From NCBI GenBank assembly GCA_000467715.1, contig AJFK01000016.1:1-64000 (forward strand): a stretch of DNA of 64,000 nucleotides, given 5' to 3'. Source of the DNA: Hysterium pulicare CBS 123377. Its lineage: Eukaryota; Ascomycota; Dothideomycetes; Hysteriales; Hysteriaceae. The first letter of the stretch is position 1, and each line of letters opens with the position of its first letter. Under the pieces are notes generated by a model. It was not told where the DNA came from. It saw nothing but the letters and a program-made list of their open reading frames with translations, and did not search any database. A program made the translations under genes and the position numbers. Positions 2,931 through 44,962 of the stretch are shown here, one piece after another.

Positions 2931-5767
2931 ATGGCGCAAAGGACGAACGTGAAGACCACCTACGCCATCAGCAGAGCTCTTCAACCAATCTACAGTGGCG
3001 GCAGCGTCGCACTAAGCGGCAATGGACGCATCCTTGCGACCTGCCTCGGTGAGGATGCGCTCCTGACCGACATCACCGCCGGAGAGGAGCTTTCGAGAGT
3101 GGAAGGGGTTCGTCTTCTGTCGGGCGACTTTCCGAGAGCAAATAGACTGACGCACAAGACAGGATGGAGAAGTCATCACTGCTCTAGCTTGCAAGTTCTG
3201 GAATCATTCGTTGCGATGGATTTTCTCAGCTGACATGATTAGTGACTCCCTCTGGCTCCCATCTGATCGTATGCTCAAGGTCGCTCTCGATGCGCATCTA
3301 CTCCCTGGAAATAGTCCCAACAGGAGGAGATGCCATAAGCCCTACCCTGCTTCGAACTCTGAGGCCGTATACCTCACCAGTCGTTAGTTTGGCTGTTGAT
3401 AGCACAAGCTCCCTTCTAGCTACTGGTGGCGCTGACGGCATCGTAAAAGTCTGGGACATACAGGGAGGGTATACCACCCATACCTTCCACGGCCACGGCG
3501 GCGTTATTTCTGCTTTGCACTTCTTTCAGGTGAAAAGTTCGCCTCAGAACCTCCTTTCGGGCACAAATAGCAAGTCCAGGAAAACAGGAAGGAAAACAAT
3601 AGAGTTGCCTGAGTTACATAATGCTGATGACAGCAGTCTCGAATTCCGATTGGCTTCGGGCGCGGAAGATGGTAAAATACGGATCTGGAACTTGCACAAA
3701 AGCATACGTATAGCTATCCTTGACTCGCACGTCTCGGTGGTGCGTGCATTGGATTTTTCCCTAAACGAGAATGCGTTGGTCTCGGGAAGCAGGGACAAGA
3801 CCGTGATAGTATGGGACGCGAGGACATGGAAAGTCCGAAGAACCATTCCGGCTCTAGAGAGTGTCGAAAGCGCTGGCTTCGTTACTAATGGAGCATTTGT
3901 ATACACCGGTGGAGAACGTGGCCGAGTGCGATTATGGGTGGTTGCTGAAGGGAGGGAATTGACACGGGACCAAGCGACGGGGTTGGAGACGGAGAGCATT
4001 GTCGACGTAATATACCACCGAAGTCTTCCATATCTGCTATCTGTCCATGCAGATCAAACCCTTACTCTACACTCATTGGCTTCCCAACCATCGGTGGAAG
4101 GTATAGATCCACTCCCAATCATCAGGCGAATCTCCGGTACCTATGACGAAGTAATTGATCTTGCGTATATTGGACGGGAAAGAGACCTACTTGCCTTGGC
4201 GACGAATTCAGAAGACATCCGAATTATATCCTTGCACTTGCCGAAAATAGCAAAGGTACAGGACTCAGTTGGAGGAAAATACTTCGGTGCAGACATAGCT
4301 TTCCTTAAGGGGCATGAAGACATCATCATCTGTTTAGACGTTGACTGGTCAGGGCATTGGCTAGCCACAGGGGCTAAAGATAATACAGCGCGACTCTGGC
4401 GATTGGATCCGGAAGAGGAGTCCTACAGATGTGTTGCGATTCTGACTGGTCATGCGGAATCGCTAGGTGCGATCGCACTTCCCCACTCGCCACCTCCGTC
4501 GAGCTCTCCTGCCTTTACTGAACCGTTATCTTACCCTCCTCACTTTCTCGTAACCGGCTCTCAGGATAGGACGATTAAACGGTGGGACATTTCAGCTGTA
4601 GCAAGAGGAACCGGTACAGCATTGCGAGCGACTTATACTCGGAAAGCCCACGACAAAGATATCAATGCACTTGATATCGACGATAGCTCTACCTTGTTCG
4701 CTTCGGCGTCCCAAGATCGCACAGTCAAGATATATTCCGCAGCAGCTGGGGAAACCCAAGGTGTTCTTAGAGGCCACCGTCGGGGCGTTTGGACCGTCAA
4801 GTTTGCACCCAGAGATATCCAACCTATACCCGGAACTACCAGCAAGGGATTTGTGGCAACAGGAAGCGGCGATAAGACTATAAAGATATGGAGCCTGGCT
4901 GATTACAGCTGCCTCCTGACTCTGGAGGGCCATACGAACAGCATTCTAAAACTAGCATGGATGCCGACTCGTCCTCTCGACGCCCGCGACAAGCGAGGAG
5001 CTCAACTAGCTTCTGCGGGCGGTGATGGTCTTGTCAGAATCTGGGATACTGCCAATGGCGAAGCGATGTGTACCTTAGACAACCATACAGACCGTGTATG
5101 GGCGTTGACTGTGCATCCGAAGACAAATACCCTTGTTTCCGGTGGTGGGGACAGCATTGTCACTTTCTGGGAAGATACAACCAGTGCTACTTTAGAAGCG
5201 GCAACAAGTGCTGAAACGGAGCGTGTAGAGCAGGACCAGCGGTTGCAGAACTTTGCCTATGCAGGTAACTACCGAGAGGCAATCACGCTTGCTTTGCAGA
5301 TGAACCAGCCCGGAAGACTATTTGCACTCTTCAAAGCCGTGGTAGAATGTGAGCCCCAGGACGAAGGGAGCATGTCAGGACTGAAAGCTGTTGATGAGGT
5401 ATTGTTGCACCTGGCGGACAACCAACTGTTCGCTTTAATCTTGAGATTACGTGACTGGAACACAAATGCAAGGACGTCGGTGGTGGCGCAGAAGATCCTT
5501 TGGACGATTCTGAATTCGTACTCTGCATCACGACTAGCGAACCTGAGACCTATTGGCAGGGCAGGAGTTAAAGAAACCCCTAGAGACGTATTGGATGCTT
5601 TGAAAGCGTACTCGGAGAGACATTATCGTCGAATAGAAGAACTTACGGATGGAAGTTATCTTCTGGACTTCACTTTGAGGGAAATGGACGAGAGTGCAGG
5701 GAGTGAAGCGATCATCAACGGAACGTCGATACTTGCTCCAGACAGAGATCTTGCAATAGTGCAATAG
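2931..5767 (+). CDS. UTP13: UTP13, WD40 subunit of the U3 snoRNP / SSU processome
   Basis: WD-repeat subunit of the UTP-B module, needed in the nucleolus for early cleavages of pre-rRNA toward 18S rRNA. Model: join(2931..3107,3163..3190,3243..5767), 909 aa, close to the usual size. Tandem WD repeats fill roughly residues 20-690 (for example ATGGADGIVKVWD, VSGSRDKTVIVWD, ASASQDRTVKIYS, ATGSGDKTIKIWS). They are followed by a helical UTP13 C-terminal domain (LADNQLFALILRLRDW, VVAQKILWTILNSY). The two short introns restore the N-terminal blades. Intron 1 (3108-3162) is gttcgt..ag with a CTGAC branch. Intron 2 (3191-3242) has a GC donor, gcaagt, and ends ..attag after a CTGAC branch. The 28-nt exon between them encodes DGEVITALA. 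Divergent from the gene at 542-2631. No breaks in the reading frame. Confidence 0.93.
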
Positions 5768-5875
5768 CTAAATTTACTAATATCTAGACGACATCAAAGG
5801 TTCAGCATTCGATTACCTTCGTTGTGTTGACGTTGATCCGGCTCCATTTTCGCCCATTGACTGTGCATTTCAAAA

Positions 5876-6700
5876 TTACATTGGCCAGTATACATGACAA
5901 AAGTACCCGAATAGTAATGGTTTCCAGTTTTCATAGGTCTTGTTTCGCCAGAAGAATAGATGCTCCAGGAACTTTTGCATTTTCTTCTGGACACTTGGAA
6001 ACGGTGTTCGGCCCGACAGCAATAGAAGAAATGGAATGAAGAACAGGGTCTCCAACGCATGCCAATCCAATACTACATAGTAGCGGAAATCTCCGCGCCA
6101 GAACAGCCTCTTCCGTCCGTTCCTTTGGATATTGTCCAACTTCTTCTGCTGTCTTTTCCACAATGACTTTCATATAGTTCTGTGACAGATTATTAAAGAA
6201 CACAATGGCACTATGCGTTCTCGAAGTATACTCTATTGGTATGATTTCAAGCCACCCTAGGGGTCTGTTTCCTCATCCCTTACTAAGAAATCAAAATTCA
6301 AATGTCCAGTAACCTCTTTCCCAATTCCCTCGCTAAGCGCTTCGTAACTCTTGTTCATTACGTGAAAGTCCTCATGGTAGGTATGCAAAACATAAACAAC
6401 CCCATAGAGACCGATAGAAACTCAATCTACCGGAGCAATAGATCGTGGCATGACGCCCAGACGTTGATTTGTGAAGATCGCCTCTAGAGCCGTCTACGTA
6501 CTCGACGACATGCAGATATCACTTTGGATCCGGCCAAGATGCCGTAACCAACTAGGCGACATTATAGTTCCACCACGAATTTGACAACTTTGGACTAGAT
6601 AAGAAATCGCCCATATATCGTGGCTAGCCCGTCTATGTTGCTTTGTAGAAAATGGGGCAGCTATGTTTCCCGTCACGACTTAGCTCTCGTTGATGTCATT
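5876..6700 (-). pseudogene. decayed ATP-grasp ligase, mycosporine-type
   Basis: Minus-strand remnant. One frame reads, with in-frame stops, the segment TGHLNFDFLVRDEETDP, then WLEIIPIEYTSRTHSAIVFF and NNLSQNYMKVIVEKTAEEV. This matches the 'GHLSFDFL...YPIECNPRTHTAVV' core of ATP-grasp enzymes of the carbamoyl-phosphate-synthase-like class seen in fungal and metazoan mycosporine pathways. The C-terminal end continues in another frame (RYYVVLDWHALETLF, FLEHLFFWRNKTYENW, CHVYWPM), so at least one frameshift and about two premature stops are present. The conserved ECNPRTHT is changed to EYTSRTHS. The N-terminal boundary is not resolved and the 5' limit given is approximate. It is divergent from the cyclase relic at 6945-8604, as expected for a two-gene cluster. 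Family recognition is from memory of motifs. Confidence 0.7.
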
Positions 6701-6944
6701 GGAGAATACCAGAGAAAGCCCAGCTGAGATACATTGTAGTCGGAGAGTAGTTGAGGTGACTTTGGTCCAATTTGACATTCGTGACTTAATTTCTCTGGGG
6801 CCAGTGCTAACCTTCGAGACAAAAGCCACCTGTAGGTCATGAGTGTAGGTATTTAGGTGTCCAGTGCCCGACTTGTCCACCACCTCCATCTCTAATTTTA
6901 TATTCCCATTCATTTGGCGGATTAGAGCTGCTTTTACAACCACC

Positions 6945-8604
6945 ATTCGGATATTGAAGCTTCCGTTGCTAAGACGAATCCAGCTTCTATGTTGAAGAAT
7001 GGGAGAAGATCGAGTACGGTTTTCCTTTTTTCCACGGTGTGTTCGACTTTAAGAATGTATAGTGAGTAGCATCTTATGCAAGATGGGATCGTTTCCTTGC
7101 TATCATGGACCTGAACATTTGCAACCTCTATGGCGAAAAAAAAATGCAGCAGTACTTCAAACAATCACAACTTAGAGCTCAAAACTCACCAAACAATGAT
7201 TGGACAACAAGCAAAGTCGATTGGCGCATTTTTGAGCGTTGTGGATTCGATGAATGAGTTCGGCGTAATTAGAAAGGTATGATTTTCTTTGGGATCCAGA
7301 CTCGAAATGCCGTAAGTACTTTGAGGAATTTGTCAAAGATCAAACCCAATGTCCGAACGTATGCCAACATCAAATAGGTCCATGTAGCAACTTATCCTAG
7401 GTGTCGGTGGTGGATTAGTTACAGATGTTCTCAGGTAATAACGTACCACTGATCCATGCCAAAGATATCTTAAAGGCACTCTGGCCTAGGATACAATCGG
7501 ATGATCCAACCCGGAATAGAAAACCAATCTCTTTATCACAGGTTTGGTTAAGAAGCATATCGAAGATAACAAACAACGTTCGGATCCCCACCACGGTTAT
7601 CGGCCTAATCGATGCCAGTGTTAGTATCAAGATCGCTGCGAATTATGGTGACTACGAAAACCGCCTGGGTGTGTATCGTGCACCGATGTATACATTCCTG
7701 GGGTTTGTATTTCTCGGAACGCTGCCGGAAGCAAAAGTCAGAATTTCGAGCAGCGCCCATTTAGAAACGTTTGATTTGCTGGACGAGTACTGTATACGGT
7801 TGATCCAGACAGGTTCTGGTCGAGTGGATATTGCACCGGAAGGTTCGCAGAGCTGTGAATGAAATCAGTCGATCATGCATCTACGAGATGCTTGTATTTG
7901 GAGACGCTGAGTCTACATGAGATGGGGTTGGATAGAGTTATTGCTTATGGACGTACATAAGTCGTATCGTATTGAGGTTAGGGCTCCGCAGTCAACTCTT
8001 GTAAAGGTGGTCACCACTTCATGGACTCGTGCCACAGGTACTGCCTCGCAGCGGGCATGCAATATCAATCGACATGGCCTATTCTGTGACCTTTGGCAAC
8101 GTGCGAGGCCTGCTGTTAAGTGACGTTAAAGTTGTTTTCGAGAACTGGTCTCTCGATGGACCATGCTCAATTCGACGAAGAGATCTTGGACAAGATGAAA
8201 GACGGAAATTAAGCGCTGTTGTTCCCAATCTGTTGGGAAGCTGTACGTTGTTGGATGATGTGTCTATGGGGCTATATGTACGCGGCATTGCGACGACAGA
8301 AAGAAATCATGAAGCAGTATCCACGCCACGGAGAAGGTGTCGAGACTTTTGTAGACTCGAGTGACATCGGATACACGTTGAATGACGCACTGGTCGAAGC
8401 TCTGGATAGAGAAGTTAATGGGCACACGAGTGGCGTTGTCATCGGCGCGAGTGATACCAAAGAACTTGGTCGGATGGTTTCACAAGTAACGTCTCAAACG
8501 CTATTTCCCTTGCCTCGGGGCCTAAGGGTGTTGATGGGCTGCAGAAGCCTGTGAATCATGGCTTCCAGAATGGATTCAGTTATCCCAATGGCCATCACAA
8601 TTGA
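6945..8604 (+). pseudogene. decayed sugar-phosphate cyclase (DDG/EEV-synthase-like, dehydroquinate-synthase fold)
   Basis: Plus-strand remnant of a 2-demethyl-4-deoxygadusol / 2-epi-5-epi-valiolone synthase-type enzyme, which cyclises sedoheptulose 7-phosphate. Segments in family order: WEKIEYGFPFFHGVFDF (about 6990), ARWDRFLAIMDLN and NLYGEKKMQQYF (about 7090), VVDSMNEFGVIRK (about 7240), GVGGGLVTDVL (about 7400), RIPTTVIGLIDASVSIK (about 7580), LETLSLHEMGLDRVIAYG (about 7900), GHAISIDMAYS (about 8050), then ALRRQKEIMKQYPRHGEG (about 8285) and a C-terminal tail ending near 8604. It is broken: two adjacent stops follow GVFDFKNV, several frame changes occur between 7420 and 8300, and the conserved segment expected after LPEAKVR (NGFAEL in the family) is missing. 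The HTW of the metal site reads RT-stop. A short intron may lie at about 7280-7398. It cannot encode an active enzyme. Confidence 0.82.
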
Positions 8605-10105
8605 GATGGTATTATGCTAATGTGATGACTCGAAAGTGCGATAGTAATAAAGAGTGAAAACAACACAACAAGCTGTCATGGCATTATTAGGAAAGTACCT
8701 TTGGAAAATACTAGTGGGAAGCTTGACTCGCCAATATTTTTGGACCCCTCGATACATACTGCTGTGAATTCTGGGAGATGAGCTGGCGCATGTTGTAAAC
8801 TTCTCTGGTCGATAGTTAGTCGCTGCTTTTTGGAAGCTTTTGTTGGGCTCGTTGAGGGGGATCCGAAAAGTCAATGGATTCTTGTCCAAGTGCACCCAAA
8901 TAACGCGCGATGGATGGATACTCCCGATCGAGCTATTTATTGCACTTTGCAGTGAATGACCTCGAGATTGCGCCTGTGACAGGACATGGCTGGGCGGTGA
9001 TTTGCGAGACCCAAACGATTGGCTTTCAAGGCATCCCATCACCAACCAACATTAACATTCATTATTTGCGAAACCAACATGTGGCGCCAGGGTGCAGTGC
9101 AGACTGCGCGACGACCGGATGGCAGCCTTCCCACGAGGGTCTCTGTTACTCGAGGCGTTTTGACTAGGCCATGGCACAATATAATCTCCGAGCACACGGT
9201 GGAGAGAACGTTGGGCCTGCAACCACGATTTTCAAATGTTCACGACTCACCACACCTGCGATGCTTTTATGGCTGGCAAGCGGGCGGGGGCGTTCGGTTT
9301 GCTGCTCAGGTCAGGGCCCGCGTGTATGAGACAACAAGGTGGCGACAGCAAGAACATGGTCTCTGGGGTCGAGCTACTATAGCAGGTGTACGATGTATAG
9401 GAAAAGTGGTCAGATATAGCGAGGGTGTCAGGTACATGTACATGATATGGAATGTGAGCTTCTAAGTTCTGGAAAAGGGGAACTGATAGACGATCTGCAG
9501 GTGCGTCGCCCGATGCAGCTGGCTCTATCGTTTTGGGAAAACGCAGTGTGAAAGATCCAATGGCATCTCCTTCTCCCGCGCCCATCGCACCCAGAAATTG
9601 GTCGTCCGCGAAGGAGCCCGTGTTGCGAGAACAACAAAATCCCTTAAACACATCCCCAATCCCCAACCCCAATCTCAGCCCCGTCGTCTTGCCTTTCTTA
9701 TGTCTCTTGTCGTTGAGGCTGCCGCAGTCTCTTCATAGTTCCTTCCCCCCAACCGAACTGAACCCAATTGGAATAACTGTAACTCTTCCTGACCCGCACT
9801 GCTAGCTTCTGTCCTATCACGGGGCACGTCATCCTCCGGCTTGAAGAAACCGTGGACGTGCGCTTGAACCCTGCATGTGCATCTGCGTCCGTTCTCGCAA
9901 GGAACCTCCCCGTCCCTTTGACACCACGCCGAGTTCTCCAAGACGCTTTTGGAACGCCGCATTACACCAGCGACCTTTTGCCCTTCGCCATCAGATATGA
10001 ATGCCTTAAGGTAGACTTCGACTACACCAGGGATATATGGACATTTTCTGACGGCTTAGACGCTGGATGTACTAATTAGACAATCGGGAAAAGCATTCAC
10101 TCGTA
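8605..10105. other. non-coding stretch, probably including the kinesin promoter and leader
   Basis: No frame with family similarity or splice logic was found. A TATA-like aataaatag occurs on the minus strand near 8940, but the short frame downstream closes quickly. From about 9650 the plus strand is C-rich and looks like a leader for the kinesin gene starting at 10106. I see no methyltransferase remnant beside the cyclase relic. Confidence 0.5.
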
Positions 10106-13085
10106 ATGGCGACTACCACCTTGCCGCGACCTTCACGACCCTCACTACCAGCGCTTAATCCTCCCACCGGCCCTCTACCCTCGCTACCAGTACCAAAATC
10201 TCGCAATAACAACAGTTCAGGAAGCCCAACAACCACCCAAGCGAGTCGAGTGTCCTCAGCATCTTTACTACCTTCGCTCACGCAACCACGCGCCGTTTCC
10301 TCTTCGGCTCTTCCTCAACGTCCTCAGCAGAAGACTCACTCGACATCCGCATCGAATGTCCCCACTCTTAGCACGAAGGATGCACCAACCGCACTTCCAG
10401 GGAAGACTCTGCGCAAGACTATCAGCATTGGTGCGTTCCCTCAGCCTCCGAAACATGTAGGGCGGACAACAAGTCACCCGCCCAGTCCTCTGTCCGCAAG
10501 CTCGATACCCGGTAGTGCCTCCGTTGGACAACGGCTATCCGCTGGAGCTAAAACCACACCGTCTCGCGACAGCAGTCTCCGAAGCGGGCCTAGGATCTCA
10601 GGTCGCGGACTTTCAATGAAGTCCCCACTGACTCCTCCAAGTCTCCTGAATGGAAGCGCGGAGACCATTCACGTCTCCAATACCGGTCACCTCAGCCTCC
10701 CCTCCCCTCCCCAAAGTAGGACATCTTCGGCGCAGGGCTCGTACGCGACAAGTGCGACTACGTTCGAAGATATCGGCGAAGAAGAGCAGAGAGGGCGCTT
10801 GGACAAATGCGCTGAAGACGAGAAGCAATCCACGCATAAAGACGGCAAAGGCAATGTTCTTGTCAGCGTGCGTGTCCGGCCTGATGCCGGAGCCAGTGAT
10901 GGTCGACAAGAGTTGGAATGGGACGTGAACGGAAAACGCGCACTTGTGGCATATAAAGGGAAGGAGGGCGGCGAATATCACTATGGTGGGCTCCACAACA
11001 GGATGCACGCGGATCGATTAGGTGCTGACCACATATAATCTAGATAATGTATTTGATACACAAGACACTAATGCCAGAGTATACGACGCAGCTGCTAAGC
11101 GACTGGTACGGAGGGTGATGGAAGGATATCACGGCACCGTTTTCGCTTATGGCATGACCGGGACGGGTAAAACTTACTCCATGCAAGGAACCGCCACAAA
11201 GCCAGGAGTAATTCCACTAGCGATCACCGACATATTCTCATTCATCAGGGAGACGCCCCATCGAGAGTTTCTACTACGGGTCAGTTACCTAGAAATATAC
11301 AACGAGAAGATTCACGATTTGTTGGCGACTCCAGTTGCTGCTGGTATCAATGGCCAGCCTGGACAACAGGAGGAGATCAAGCTGAGGGAGGATAGTAAAC
11401 GAGGAGTTTATGCAACCCCGTTGAAAGAAGAGATCGTCCAGAGCCCAACTCAACTTCTACGAGTCATTGCTCGGGGCGATGCGGCGAGACGAGTCGCGGG
11501 TACTCAGTACAACGCGCGCAGTTCAAGGAGTCATGCCGTAGTTCAGATCGTAGTCGAAAGCCGAGAACGAGCACCTGGGGGTGCAGCCAGTCTCAAAGAG
11601 ACCAAACGCTCCGCCATCGTTCCCGGAGGGGTGCGTGTCTCGACCCTCAGTTTGATCGATCTGGCTGGATCGGAAAAGGCTGCTGAAAATAAGGAGAGAC
11701 GAACTGAAGGTTCTCATATCAATAAGAGTCTGCTAACGCTTGGTACTGTTATTGCTCGCTTATCTAGTGATAAAGATAAGTTCGGATCGGAGAAGGACAA
11801 GTCTGGAGGGCCGAATAAGGACAAGCATTTGCCATACAGAGACAGTAAGCTCACTCGTCTGCTGCAACCAGCCCTATCCGGCAATTCGCTCGTTAGTATC
11901 CTTTGTACGATTCAAATCGGATCAACTGGAAGCGTTGCTGCAGCGCACAGTCATACGGGAGAAACACTCAACACGTTAAAGTTTGCGTCGAGAGCGAAGA
12001 ACAACATTGTCAGCCATGCAAAGAAGGCCGAGGAAGCCATGGGCTCTGGTGCAGATGCTGGACTTCTTGATCGATATCGGAGAGAAATCGAGAATTTGAA
12101 GAAGCAACTCGAAGACCAGAAGACGGCCAAGGATACCACTAAGGAGGAGGAGAAAGATGCGGAAGAAGAGAAGGCACGCGAATTGGAGGCTGAGCAGCGG
12201 CATGAGGAGCAGATGCTTGAGATGCAGTTGGCTAGAACAGCACTAAAGGAGCGAATAGAGCATCTGAATCGCCTGATTCTGAGTTCCAAGTCTCTAGGAG
12301 TCAACACCAATAGGTCCGTGTCAGCTATGAGCCTGCAGAATCGGGGGTCTGTTTTGAGCAATGGGGATTTCCAACCCGTTTCTGCACGCTCCTCAGCGAG
12401 CCAGGTAAATCTTGAAGTCCCCGGTGTGCATAGCTCCCTGCCAGCTGGAGAACTGGGATCAGAGGACAACGACTCGCTCGGTGAAAATGGCGACGGGACG
12501 GCTAGTCAGACGGCTCAAATTCAGGCTCTGCAATCTGACCTTGCAGACAAGAACCGGTACATTGGTACTCTTGAAAGGAGACTGCTTCAAGCAAGACGAT
12601 CTAGCCATTCTCGCATCTCAATGAGTCTCTCGTACAAGATGGCAGGTGACGAGGAAGGAGCGCAATTCAACCGGCTGGAAGGTGTTATCAGGGAAAGGGA
12701 CGATGAGATTTCTAGCCTCCGTGCTCGGCTTGATGACCAAGAAAGAATGATTGCCGTACTGCAGGCTACAGTTAAGAAGAAGACGACTGTTAGCACATCG
12801 GTGGGACCGTCTGGGAGCCGAAGGGCGTCACATCAGCGCAGTGAGAGCAGCAACGGCAGCTTGAAGTCCAAGGACGCCCCCATCAGTCCAGTCGCACTAC
12901 TCTCGCCAACATCACAGAAGTCGGGAAAGGGATTTGAGGATGGCGATGAGATGACGCGAATGCTGGACGAGATGATCTCCGAACGCGTCGACTCGTCAGA
13001 GCGGGTAGATGCAGGACATGTGGTCAAGGTGTCACGGGGGAGCAGCCTGCGGATGGTGAGCGAAGAAGTAAGGGCTGAGTTATGA
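10106..13085 (+). CDS. kipA: kinesin-7-like motor, Kip2/Tea2/KipA type
   Basis: Plus-end-directed microtubule motor; Kip2/Tea2/KipA kinesins carry polarity factors to microtubule plus ends in fungi. Model: join(10106..10985,11044..13085), 973 aa. Residues 1-245 are a Pro/Ser/Thr-rich, basic extension typical of this fungal group. The motor starts near residue 250 (NVLVSVRVRP). It has the P-loop GMTGTGKT near 330, switch I NARSSRSH near 449 and switch II LIDLAGSE near 497, so all nucleotide-binding motifs are intact. Coiled coil runs from about 634 (LDRYRREIENLKKQLEDQK), with a second segment near 800 and a Ser-rich tail. The intron (10986-11043, gtgggc..tag, CTGAC branch) splits the Asp codon of YHYDNVFD and its removal restores the motif. 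The kinesin assignment is certain; the kipA symbol is inferred from the N-terminal extension and motor style. Confidence 0.88.
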
Positions 13086-18834: not shown

Positions 18835-21289
18835 TCACATAACGACGCACCCGCCCTCCGCGCTTGCGTTGGAGGGCGCCAAAGCAGTCGGGCTAATGCT
18901 CTCAGGTTTTTTTACCCCTTTTAAAGACTGACTACGACTCGCGCCACCAGCCGTCCATCTCAAAAATGGCGATACCGGCTGTTTCTTCTCTCGCTTATGT
19001 CGACCGTTCTCCACAACCACCATTCCTGGATGACCATGAGGCGGAGGCGGAGGCGGAGGCGGCGGTGGTGGCCCATTTAACACGACAATTTCTGGTCCAC
19101 CTGGCGGTGGGGGCGGAGGTGGAGGAGGGGGTGGGGGTGGTCCACCCATTGGCGGGCCATGGCCATGGGGAATGATCTTTTTACTCTTCTTGCCGCTGCC
19201 CTTGGATGGTCTGGGCCCGTTGACAATAACCATGTGAGGATCGAGCATAGACGGCGGGAACGGCATATCCTTAGGCGGCTCGGGAGGAGGTGGCGGCGGC
19301 GGTTCGGGCATTGGCCACATATGCATTGTGATGGCCCAGTCCGGCTGCACCATCGTCTCCCAGACTTGGGGAAGAATGATTTCGCCATCAGGCCCGACAA
19401 GGTCGTAGTGGCCTTCGTGAACGTGAGGTCCAATGACGTCGACGTGGAGGAAGGCTTGCTTGATCAGTTCTTCCATTCCCTGTCAACAAAAGTCAGTCTC
19501 GTTCGGAGTGTTTGGTTCTTGTTGCTTCACATACCTTCCAGGTTTTACACAGGTGCCAAGGGAAACTAAATTTGCGCCCAACGGCATCCTTGAACTTGAT
19601 TGGGGGTTTCTTCTCTTCTGGTTTCGGTTTCATTTTGGCAGCCTCCTCTTCGGCGGCTTTCTTTCCCTTCTCCAATTCTTCTGCTGCGGCTTTGGCCTCC
19701 GCCATAGCCTTCTCATGAGCAGCCTTGGTCTCCTCGGCCTCCTTGGCGGCCTTTGCTTCCGCTTCTTCCCTAGCTTTTTTGGCAGCCTCAAGTAATTTCG
19801 CAGCAGCTTCCGCGGCCGCCTTCTTCTCGGCGGCTTCTTTGGCAGCTTTAGCATCAAGCTCAGCTTTTTCTGCTTTGCGAGCTGCATCGGCGGCTGCCTC
19901 CCGCTTAAGCTGTTCATCTTTTTGGGCTAGGATAAGCTTCTCAAGCTTCGCCAACTTGTCTTCATCCCCCTTCTTTTTCGTCTCGGCGGCTTTTATTGCA
20001 GCTTCTTCCGCAGCTCGCCTCTTCTCCGAATCTTTCTTGATTCGCGCTTCTTGTTGCTCCAACAGAAGCTGTTCTAATTTCGAAAACCGCGAATCTTCCG
20101 CCTTCTTCTCTTCCACCTCCTGTTTGTTCAAGAGAAGTTTCTCCAATTTCGCGAGAGTGTCATCCTCCTTCTTCGAATCGATGAAGATTGGTGGCGGAGG
20201 TGGCGGAGGGGGCGGAGGTGGAGGCGGAGGTGGCATTGCCTCAGGAGCAGGCGTCGACTTCTTTGGAGGAGGGGGCGTGGGGGTGTGAGCGGGAGGCTGC
20301 TGATATCCGTAGTACATCGGATGCATTCCATAAGGCGGAGCACCATAAGGGTAATAGCCACCAGGATTGTAAGGCATCATATCCGCCCCAGGGGGACCTG
20401 GTGGCATTGAGTTCCTGTGAGGACGACCGGGTCGACCGTGAGCCTCAGCACCGAAGTAACCACCTGGGCCGCCTCTTTCATGAGGAGAGAATGGGTTTCC
20501 ACCAGGGCCTCCTGGGGGTGCAAAAGGATTCTGGGAGTACCCGTATGGATCCGGACTAGCAAAAGGTACCAATTGATTACCGGGTGGCATCCCTCCTGTG
20601 AATGGATTGAAATGTGCTGGTGGAGCAGAGATCACACTCGCTGCGTATCCGCTCGGAGGTGGTTGCGGTTGCGGAATGTGGCCCCATTGCGAGCCTGGAT
20701 GAGCCGCATTTCCACCCCTTGAGCCGTAGCCCGGGTAATCATCCGGAAGTCCCTCCAGACTGTCGGAATGTACTGATATTGGCCTTCGCCTCCTTGTAGT
20801 TCCTCGATGACCACTGGCTGCAGGTGCTTCGCGTACAGGCACACGGTGGGACGATTTGCGTCTGGCCGGGGCTGGCCTTGGGGCTGGAGGTGGTACACCT
20901 CTGTGCTTGGCTGCTCGTGGCCTTGAGGCAGAGTCCGATGGTTCGATATCGTCTTCTTCGATGTAATCGCTCACTCTGTCCCAATCTGCGTCTTCTTCTT
21001 CTTCTGAAAAACCTTCTTGGCTTCCACTAGATACTTGAATTCCAGATGAATCCTCCTCGTCCGAGATCGAAATTTGCTCAGAGCCGGTCGAGTGGGAAAT
21101 TGTAATGTTGCGACTAGCAGAGAGTAAAACGTTAGTTTTGCCTTCCATTGTGGATGTGATGGTGCAGCTTGAAGGGGCGCTGGCATAGGAACAAGTGGAA
21201 GCAGCGCGACGGCGAGGACGCGAAAGCGATCGCCCAGAAGCAGAAAAAAGAACGCGACGCTGAGGAAGGGTGCTGATCACTAACGGCAT
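18835..21289 (-). CDS. large proline-rich, coiled-coil protein with ULD_2 ubiquitin-like domain and C-terminal CaaX box
   Basis: Fungal protein of unknown role. Model: complement(join(18835..19479,19535..21289)), 799 aa; intron 19480-19534 is gtatgt..gacag, phase 0. Layout: Ser/acidic N-terminus (SISDEEDSSG, SEEEEDADWD), a Gly/Pro/Tyr-rich part, a proline run at about residues 345-365, then a charged Ala/Lys/Glu coiled coil (about 378-546) with repeats of LAKLEKLLL type. The ULD_2 domain follows and is split by the intron (FKDAVGRKFSFPWHLCKTW, then GMEELIKQAFLHVDV, PQVWETMVQPDWAITMHMW). Two further polyproline tracts precede the C-terminus. The protein ends GGCVVM, a canonical CaaX with Met at the last position, which favours farnesylation. 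This suggests membrane attachment, possibly of an actin- or profilin-contacting scaffold; that role is inference. An internal Met near residue 48 is an alternative start. Confidence 0.85.
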
Positions 21290-23222
21290 GGAAGTGGACT
21301 CTAGGAATTACCGCTTGAGACCCTTCTTCCAGAGAAGGGTCTGCACAGTAAACCTTGGATGATGAGTTGATGTAGACTCGATGTTCCTAACCAGTTTGCG
21401 CCCAAAATAATTGGAATTTCCAGGGGGCGCGCAATCGACAGTTGACTAGTCGCACGGCAGTAGATATGTCGAGAGGTGTTTGTAAACAGCAAGGTCGCCG
21501 GGGGCGATGCAGCTGCACGAGCGGGGAGTGAGAGTAGTGGGAGGACAGGTATTTGAAGAGTCGCGGGAAAAAGGGGAGGGGAATCAAGGCAGAATGGTAG
21601 GGCTGACGCTGATTCGACGGCAGGGCGAGGTTTGGCGTCTCGAAAGAATTGGCCTGAAGCAACGCGAGTGTTCACCCGCTGGCCTGCGCGCTCGGCCGTC
21701 GCTGATGTGTAATGTGTGTAGTGTATGAGAAGAGCGTTGGCGAGGAGGGGAGGTTCCAAGGTTTGGTCTGGAGTTACGGCTAAAGCTGAGAGCGGCCTTG
21801 TCGTTTTCGGGCTCCGACGATGCCTGGCGCTACCGAGTATAAATACTGGACGTGGCCCAGCCGGATGTGGAGCTTCAGAAGAAGACGGCAATCGATAAGG
21901 CACCAGCCTGAGGTGCTAGCGAAGACGCCGAAGAAGCGGAGGATAAAAAGACAGAAAGAACGGGAAACAAGAGGCAAAAGCAGGGTGATGCAGCCTTGTT
22001 GTAAAGCTGCGTGGAATGACGAAGGCGATCGCTGCGAGTGTGTCGCAGATTGGCTGTTGCTGTAGGCCAACCCTTGAAACTCCTGCGGTGGGGGGTCACA
22101 CCAGAGCGCGATGATGCTATTCCTCGATCTGAGGTGAATGAGATGCTCGAGGCCGATGCCGGGAGTGCAAATTCGACTCTGATGTGCTGGGGTTTGTTGA
22201 TGTTTGGGGGCTGATGTTGTTTTTGTTGTGGAGCAGATCTGAGGCCAGACAACGGCCAGGACAGAGTCAACAATGGAGAAGTGTGGAATGCAACTCGCTT
22301 CAGGGCCTGCGTCTCACTCTTCGAATCAGGAATCGATGCGTAGTTCTTTTTCCTGGGTCGAACATAGTCTGATTTGGCCGAATGATCTGGAAGCAAATTA
22401 CTTTCGAATAGGCCGGAGAAGCGCAGCGTCAATCCAAGGACATGAAATTCGAAGAGCCAATTTGTTCTAATCCTTTTAATTCCTTTCTCTCTCCTCGTCT
22501 CTATTTATTTTCTGCCAAAAAAAAATCCAGGGCGAACTTCCGAAGTCAGAGTCATTCACTCAGCCTATTTTGGGACTTGTCGTCGTGGTTGGGCTCCTCG
22601 CTCAACTACGTGTCAAGCTGTAAATGCCCACCTTTGCGGCAAGAGGCTCCACATCCGCCAACACCAACCCAATATCTACCATACATTCTTCTTTCACTTC
22701 ATTTAGAATGCCAGCTAAGGTACGCCTTGGGAGCCTCGATAGGACCAAGGCTCATGCAGCCCAACCTTCGTTGCCCAATATCAACCCGTCTTCCTGGCGG
22801 ACTGGCTGCGAGCCTTTGTTAGTGTTGATGACGGGAGTACCCGCTTAGTCGACGAGAAACACGTGTGTACCGAAGATTCAGTGGTGGTGTACTGGAATGT
22901 TCGCCGGGGTTGCTAATGCAATAAGTCTAAAGGGGTACAGCTCATTAATCCGCTATCCTGGGCCGGGCCTCACCAGTGAAGAGTGGAGCAAGGTTCTTAG
23001 AATCATGACTATTAGACCTGACCGGAAATTTAAGCCTGCATCAAGTTCTTAGGAGGTATTCATATGTTGAGACAATCGATTTCTCAGTCAATACTGCCAC
23101 GTGACTACGTCCTACGCCCCGAAGACACCTGGAAAATCCAGGCTCAAAAACTGTTTGGACTTCTCTGGGACATGGCTCTCGGAAGCGTTCAAGCTGATGT
23201 TCTCTACATCATCGCGACACCG
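21290..23222. other. intergenic region, likely ULD_2 gene promoter plus non-coding DNA
   Basis: Several frames of 70-200 codons are open on both strands, but none shows domains, signal peptides, consistent splice sites or family resemblance. The stretch next to 21290 is GC-rich and probably carries the promoter and 5' UTR of the minus-strand ULD_2 gene. I see nothing else definable. Confidence 0.5.
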
Positions 23223-44220: not shown

Positions 44221-44962
44221 CTAGATATTGCCAATCTCGACCACGAATTCGTCAAGTTCCTTCTTGGTTGCGGCGTACTTGTTTGCCATCTCCTCGTACT
44301 TGGTTTCCCACTGGTCTCGAGATGCCTCTAGAGCTTGTACTTTGCGTTCGAAATGGCCGGCTTTGACGTCCGTTTGACGGAGTCTGTTGATTGACACATT
44401 AGTCAAACTGCTCTCTTAACAGTTTAAGGAGATGGTCGACAGGTTCGTATAGTAAATATGCATGTTCGTTTCGGAAGTGCAGGGGAGGGTGAGAAAGACG
44501 CACTTCTCATTCAACTCGCGAATAGTCCTGTCAGACTCCTCAGCCTCCTCCTCAAGCAACTGGACTTTTCGCTGCATGCTCTCCGCCTGACTGCTGGCTT
44601 GGGTGCCCGTCTCGGCGTTGACCTTGTGCTCCTTGACTAACGCTTCGAGTTTCTCGACTTCGGCCTCGAGCACCTGGTTCTTGTGTGACAGCGAGGTTAC
44701 CTCCTGCTCTTTTTGCATCGTCTCCGTCTCCAGTGTTTTCACTTTGGCTTTGTACTCGTCGGCTTTGGCTGCAGACTCGTCGGCCTCGATGCGGAGGGCA
44801 GCCATACGCTAATATAAGGACACATGTTAGCGACCACTCTGGAAAACTGCGTTGTTGCCACTTCGTTGTTGACTTTGGGATCTTCTGGAGACTCCGGATG
44901 CCCGTGTTGAAGGGTTTGGAGGGGTAGTTTCAGGGTAATCTCACCGCTTTGATTTGATCCAT
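44221..44962 (-). CDS. TPM1: tropomyosin
   Basis: Coiled-coil dimer that winds along actin cables and the contractile ring and controls formin and myosin V activity. Model: complement(join(44221..44383,44504..44808,44945..44962)), 161 aa, the same length as fission yeast Cdc8 and yeast Tpm2. Exon 1 has only 18 nt (MDQIKA) and joins RMAALRIEADESAAKADEY. The whole protein is heptad-repeat coiled coil with no proline, ending KYAATKKELDEFVVEIGNI. The introns are 136 bp (gtgaga..attag) and 120 bp (gtgcgt..caacag). The second splits a Lys codon and gives LNEK-LRQTDVKAGHFERK. No truncation. Divergent from the gene at 45291 across about 330 bp. Confidence 0.95.

Follow-up and report, generated by a model that had tools for sequence, protein, structure and literature searches.

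Probable remains of a decayed fungal mycosporine cluster in the interval from UTP13 to a kinesin gene

Between the genes for UTP13 and a kinesin lie, on opposite strands, the remnants of a sugar-phosphate cyclase (plus strand) and of an ATP-grasp ligase (minus strand), both broken, as an earlier note on this DNA had described them. Taken as a whole, the locus is best explained as what decay has left of a fungal mycosporine cluster; we consider this reading very probable and propose a deletion step within it. In the pathway, sedoheptulose 7-phosphate is converted to desmethyl-4-deoxygadusol by DDGS and further to 4-deoxygadusol by an O-methyltransferase, and an ATP-grasp ligase then forms a mycosporine by attaching an amino acid or an amino alcohol (PMC4426668, PMC10057719). 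The living cyclase, O-methyltransferase and ligase of the present locus would together have made such a mycosporine, a UV-screening compound, and the remnant would make no product now.

Sequence sets and profiles

The window, i.e., the whole stretch of DNA analysed, is 64 kb long. Queries were neighbouring genes on a plasmid of Nostoc sp. HK-01 (L001), which we read as MysA, MysB, MysC and MysD; the record labels them 3-dehydroquinate synthase, O-methyltransferase family protein, hypothetical protein and D-alanine--D-alanine ligase domain-containing protein. Profiles were built from 80 of 165 related genome loci together with L001. These 81 loci yielded 73 MysA, 73 MysB, 81 MysC and 47 MysD sequences, with identical sequences removed before alignment. 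The MysA set includes members at 38-39% identity; these are probably L053 and L068, which score lowest among the 73 members (44 and 76 bits). A broader ATP-grasp profile combined every seventh MysC with 8 ATP-grasps from 16 other plasmid records.

Results and discussion

Two histories of the decay are weighed here. We tentatively favor, at somewhat short of even confidence, that the locus records the loss of mycosporine synthesis in a Pezizomycotina lineage, in place and by one internal deletion. This would have taken the shared promoter region along with the O-methyltransferase and the front end of the ligase, after which the stumps drifted. If this is true, relatives syntenic for UTP13 and the kinesin should show all stages from living cluster to empty site, and the loss would be datable. 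Clearly less probable, although the strongest competitor, is that the copy that died here was redundant or transposed and that an intact cluster elsewhere still supplies the organism with mycosporines, so that the lineage lost nothing. The searches for further cyclase and ligase copies covered the 64-kb window only, which leaves room for an intact copy; they found no second one in its remaining part, a result that says little about the genome. Against a redundant copy speaks that the locus is free of the RIP signature of duplication. The remnant itself would be real under either history.

Both RIP indices are in fact ordinary for the window: TpA/ApT is 0.71 (window tiles 0.53-0.87) and (CpA+TpG)/(ApC+GpT) is 1.17 (tiles 1.09-1.48). 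RIP is therefore discarded as the cause of decay, which is attributed to drift. Under loss in place, the remainder would have drifted without selection or RIP. Repeats of at least 20 bases within 5700-10200 amount to one direct and one inverted pair, both imperfect.

Cyclase remnant

The existence of the cyclase remnant is confirmed. It extends over 6947..8365 on the plus strand and covers profile positions 7-408 of 414, being nearly full-length. An open piece at 7419-7862 (plus strand) matches Pfam DHQ_synthase (PF01761) with an E value of 2e-8, above the family cut-off. Against the PDB, the same piece finds 5tpr as its best match (E 1.2e-18), with 4p53 (1.3e-8) and also the DHQSs ranking behind it. 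We take 5tpr, which carries the database label 3-dehydroquinate synthase, to be the DDGS of Anabaena. The structure 4p53 is that of ValA, an EEVS (PMC4426668).

Searches with the Nostoc MysA protein (tblastn) return collinear pieces across 6976-8365, with E values of 2.9e-24 for the 7569-8365 group and 1.1e-13 for the 6976-7276 group. Nine of the 15 window frames reported by the MysA profile fall within 6973-8551 and in the correct order, eight of them at E of 0.014 or below and one (7388-7435) at 0.22; the six frames outside this region all have E values of 0.15 or worse. Frame-tolerant alignment to the MysA profile scores 288, compared with a maximum of 22.9 among 30 dinucleotide shuffles, and the residue of the MysA consensus is present at 164 of the 383 aligned positions. 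The last cyclase frame stays open beyond the alignment, over 8366..8551 on the plus strand (open frame 8213-8554), and this continuation is possibly a C-terminal extension of the fungal cyclase.

Scores of related enzymes along the remnant separate DDGS from the remainder of the superfamily. The summed tblastn bits reach 249 for Nostoc DDGS (~207 minus one overlapping piece), whereas AroB collects 43 and three proteins that carry the annotation sedoheptulose 7-phosphate cyclase collect 84, 54 and 51. The ranking is the same for the best single pieces, with 82 bits for Nostoc DDGS, 58, 54 and 51 for the other sedoheptulose 7-phosphate cyclases and 43 for AroB. An EEVS or DHQS identity is rejected on these lower sums together with the PDB ranking. 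The authors of the Phaffia study used a 30-residue stretch to separate fungal DDGS from DHQS (PMC10057719). This signature has 24 positions at which Phaffia and Nostoc share the residue, and 20 of them are retained in the remnant. Judged from these comparisons, the cyclase remnant descends from the DDGS family.

The same evidence leaves little probability for the pair stemming from another cyclase pathway (EEVS-type cyclitol or gadusol) or from an unrelated ATP-grasp pathway. Such an origin would be in line with a cyclase superfamily that is shared among pathways, with the occurrence of ATP-grasp ligases in many of them and with the shortness of the ligase signal. It has to contend, however, with summed bits for DDGS that are about 2.5 to 3 times those of the best other sedoheptulose 7-phosphate cyclase, and with the diagnostic stretch LET..LHE..LDRVIA.G.TWSP, which the remnant retains. 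The mycosporine-type pair proposed by the earlier note is upheld in its components, a DDGS-type cyclase and a MysC-type ligase; its close head-to-head order is probably not the ancestral arrangement.

Decay of the cyclase

The cyclase alignment contains nine frame changes, two in-frame stops and three intron-sized inserts of 111, 108 and 50 bases. All nine frame changes are shifts of 1-2 bases, and the two stops are adjacent to each other inside an ungapped aligned stretch. When long inserts are forbidden, the alignment score falls to 205, with 10 frame changes. Across 48 columns at which the MysA consensus and five cyclases, drawn from three kinds, show no variation, the remnant keeps 30, has changed 14 and has lost 4 by deletion. 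The lost columns include a Glu in the deleted stretch and two His that have been substituted, presumably the metal-binding positions of DHQS. The remnant thus lacks a working active site with three presumed metal ligands and is no longer an enzyme. A figure legend in PMC4426668 also mentions three metal-ligand positions, with the residues unnamed in that passage. With four changes at the 24 signature positions and 14 of the 44 aligned invariant columns changed, one can only say that the copy has drifted for a while, with no date attached.

The intron-sized length of the three inserts, along with the 14 exons of Phaffia DDGS (PMC10057719), would fit living, intron-rich genes in which the breaks are introns. 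We give this reading hardly any credence, however, as splicing is unable to rescue a cyclase with shifts of 1-2 bases and with stops in ungapped alignment, and the three presumed metal-ligand positions are lost as well. The 50-base insert at 7958-8007 interrupts the conserved GxT/WSP stretch, and its donor-like end looks damaged by eye. This suggests a fungal intron-bearing gene in which splicing has also failed.

Equally negligible is a sequencing or assembly error that fakes breaks in living genes: one frame change does lie near an A-run (about 7136-7144), but the flanking genes keep frames open for 842 and 687 codons, which argues against error, and the ~1.4 kb of cyclase combines its nine frame changes with stops and with substituted invariant columns.

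Ligase remnant

The ligase is represented by its C-terminal part only, at 5808..6316 on the minus strand, corresponding to MysC profile positions 325-463. Its core (6316-6180), which corresponds to the IECNPRTHSA stretch of MysC, is interrupted as aligned by a single stop and a single frame change, and its tail (5986-5808) is collinear with the core, on the same strand and in the right order. The frame-tolerant alignment of 6316-5808 to the MysC profile scores 34.8, against a maximum of 26.1 in 60 shuffles. Among 170 tiles of the window, the three best are overlapping minus-strand tiles at this place (34.8, 29.6 and 26.4), with the next at 25.2. Core and tail each beat 100 of 100 shuffles: the core scores 25.6, where its shuffles reach 19.2 at most, and the tail 26.4, where they reach 19.0.

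Other settings and searches return less. Only the tail aligns to the MysC profile (26.4) once long inserts are disallowed, and under laxer costs one of 60 shuffles matched the score of the ligase. The broader ATP-grasp profile places this site first by a narrow margin, 28.2 versus 26.9 elsewhere in the window. Single-frame searches stay below significance (HMM E 0.37), a Pfam search of the minus-strand pieces gives no ATP-grasp match, and MysC finds no PDB match at E 0.01. Weaker Pfam names for pieces of the locus, such as NAMPT_N (0.026) and PepSY_TM (0.051), are under their cut-offs. The translated search against the cyclase and MysC families that had been proposed earlier accordingly ranks DDGS best for the cyclase and leaves a modest MysC signal (tblastn E 0.40).

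We assign 5808..6316 to a MysC-type ligase remnant, with a modest signal much weaker than that of the cyclase. Chance is unlikely to account for it because the two collinear parts adjoin the DDGS remnant. The extent first claimed for the pair holds roughly at its outer limits; the recognisable ligase ends at 6316 and not at ~7048, and the cyclase occupies 6947-8365.

Missing parts and the inferred deletion

The remnants are separated by 630 bases (6317..6946, no strand assigned), which contain no MysC front and no accepted MysB match and which we regard as the presumed deletion site. A search for the ligase front (MysC profile positions 1-330) in 6310-7000 detected none: its score is reached by 85 of 100 shuffles, or by 81 of 100 when long inserts are disallowed. 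For the O-methyltransferase, the MysB profile likewise yields no convincing match near the pair, in agreement with the earlier note. In 5770-6950, its score is reached by 45 of 100 shuffles on the minus strand and by 2 of 100 on the plus strand; in 8366-10104, by 67 of 100 on the plus strand and 6 of 100 on the minus strand. The plus-strand match in 5770-6950 (19.8) is not accepted, being stitched across two long jumps. As no O-methyltransferase was detected, the locus is classed as the remains of a cluster and not as a cluster. MysD gave nothing in the window by either tblastn or profile.

The best place for the MysB profile in the window is 44915-44796 on the minus strand (24.5, against a maximum of 22.0 in 100 shuffles). 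We take this match as chance, since it overlaps the beginning of a coiled-coil gene and is in a different frame from that gene. Minus-strand frames at 44224-44929 read by eye as a coiled-coil protein, which to us looks like tropomyosin.

The 324 missing ligase codons would need ~972 bases, more than the 630-base gap offers, and sequence therefore seems to have been removed. In the Phaffia rhodozyma MYC cluster, the gene order is DDGS<- OMT-> ATPG-> (PMC10057719). Mirrored, this order, which comes from one basidiomycete paper, suggests an ancestral arrangement ATPG<- OMT<- DDGS->. It would place the O-methyltransferase and the ligase front as neighbours in the gap, and one deletion would explain the loss of both. 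The introns and extensions expected for a living relative are drawn from the same paper. Hence we infer that a single internal deletion removed the O-methyltransferase together with the front of the ligase.

Comparison with known clusters

The present locus resembles the Phaffia MYC cluster in most of the DDGS signature, in an ATP-grasp ligase facing the opposite way and in the likely presence of introns (PMC10057719). In contrast to the broken pair described here, for which O-methyltransferase and ligase front were not found, the Phaffia cluster is complete and was reported as functional by knock-out and yeast expression (PMC10057719). Phaffia is furthermore a basidiomycete, whereas the present locus belongs to a Pezizomycotina-like genome. 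Phaffia rhodozyma CBS 6938 is likewise without a working cluster at its known place (PMC5103461); its authors report having detected no evidence of the cluster there, whereas here decayed pieces stay in place.

With the cyanobacterial mysA-mysB-mysC genes of Nostoc sp. HK-01, the locus shares a cyclase remnant matched nearly end to end by MysA and a ligase matched by MysC. The Nostoc genes are, however, co-directional and intact, and the present locus is without a detected mysB. Within ascomycete literature, homologues of an NRPS-like mycosporine-like cluster are described for most Hypoxylaceae genomes (PMC8403587), and Ascochyta fabae is named as a mycosporine producer (PMC10057719). Among the papers listed by literature searches, with most subscription journals outside their coverage, none announced a fungal mycosporine cluster in decay.

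What we describe is a real, dead and partial mycosporine cluster, ordinary in kind (pseudogenised biosynthetic clusters are known) and useful as a marker. Such relics are to be expected for a pathway of patchy distribution, and this one is well enough preserved to hint at the way in which the cluster broke down. Its position between two conserved genes offers a fixed address at which relatives can be compared to test gain, loss and timing. The relic also serves as a warning that a match to a DHQ-synthase-like domain in a fungal genome need not equal a working sunscreen pathway.

Flanking genes and the remaining window

Both flanks are intact, and the location first reported for the pair, between UTP13 and the kinesin, stands. 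The main exon of UTP13 (3239..5767, plus strand) has 842 open codons and serves as a control of sequence quality. Its best solved structure is 5oql (865 bits), far ahead of 7suk and 5wyj (412 bits each); we assume the first to be from Chaetomium and the other two from yeast. The kinesin gene (10106..13085, plus strand) has long open frames, in which we placed the start codon and the intron by eye, and a kinesin motor domain is found in 11022-13085 (E 1.4e-91). The ~1.5 kb that lead from the cyclase remnant to the kinesin gene (8605-10105), presumably promoter and leader of the latter, show no convincing MysB or MysC match.

A search of viral contigs for close relatives found none. Further conserved eukaryotic genes in the window encode Sec10, a condensin subunit, a PI kinase, a Na/Ca exchanger and a Sac domain. 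Together with the UTP13 match and the kinesin motor, they make the DNA look like that of a Pezizomycotina fungus. Minus-strand frames of 215 and 604 codons at 18838-21307 carry proline runs and Ala/Glu/Lys repeats.
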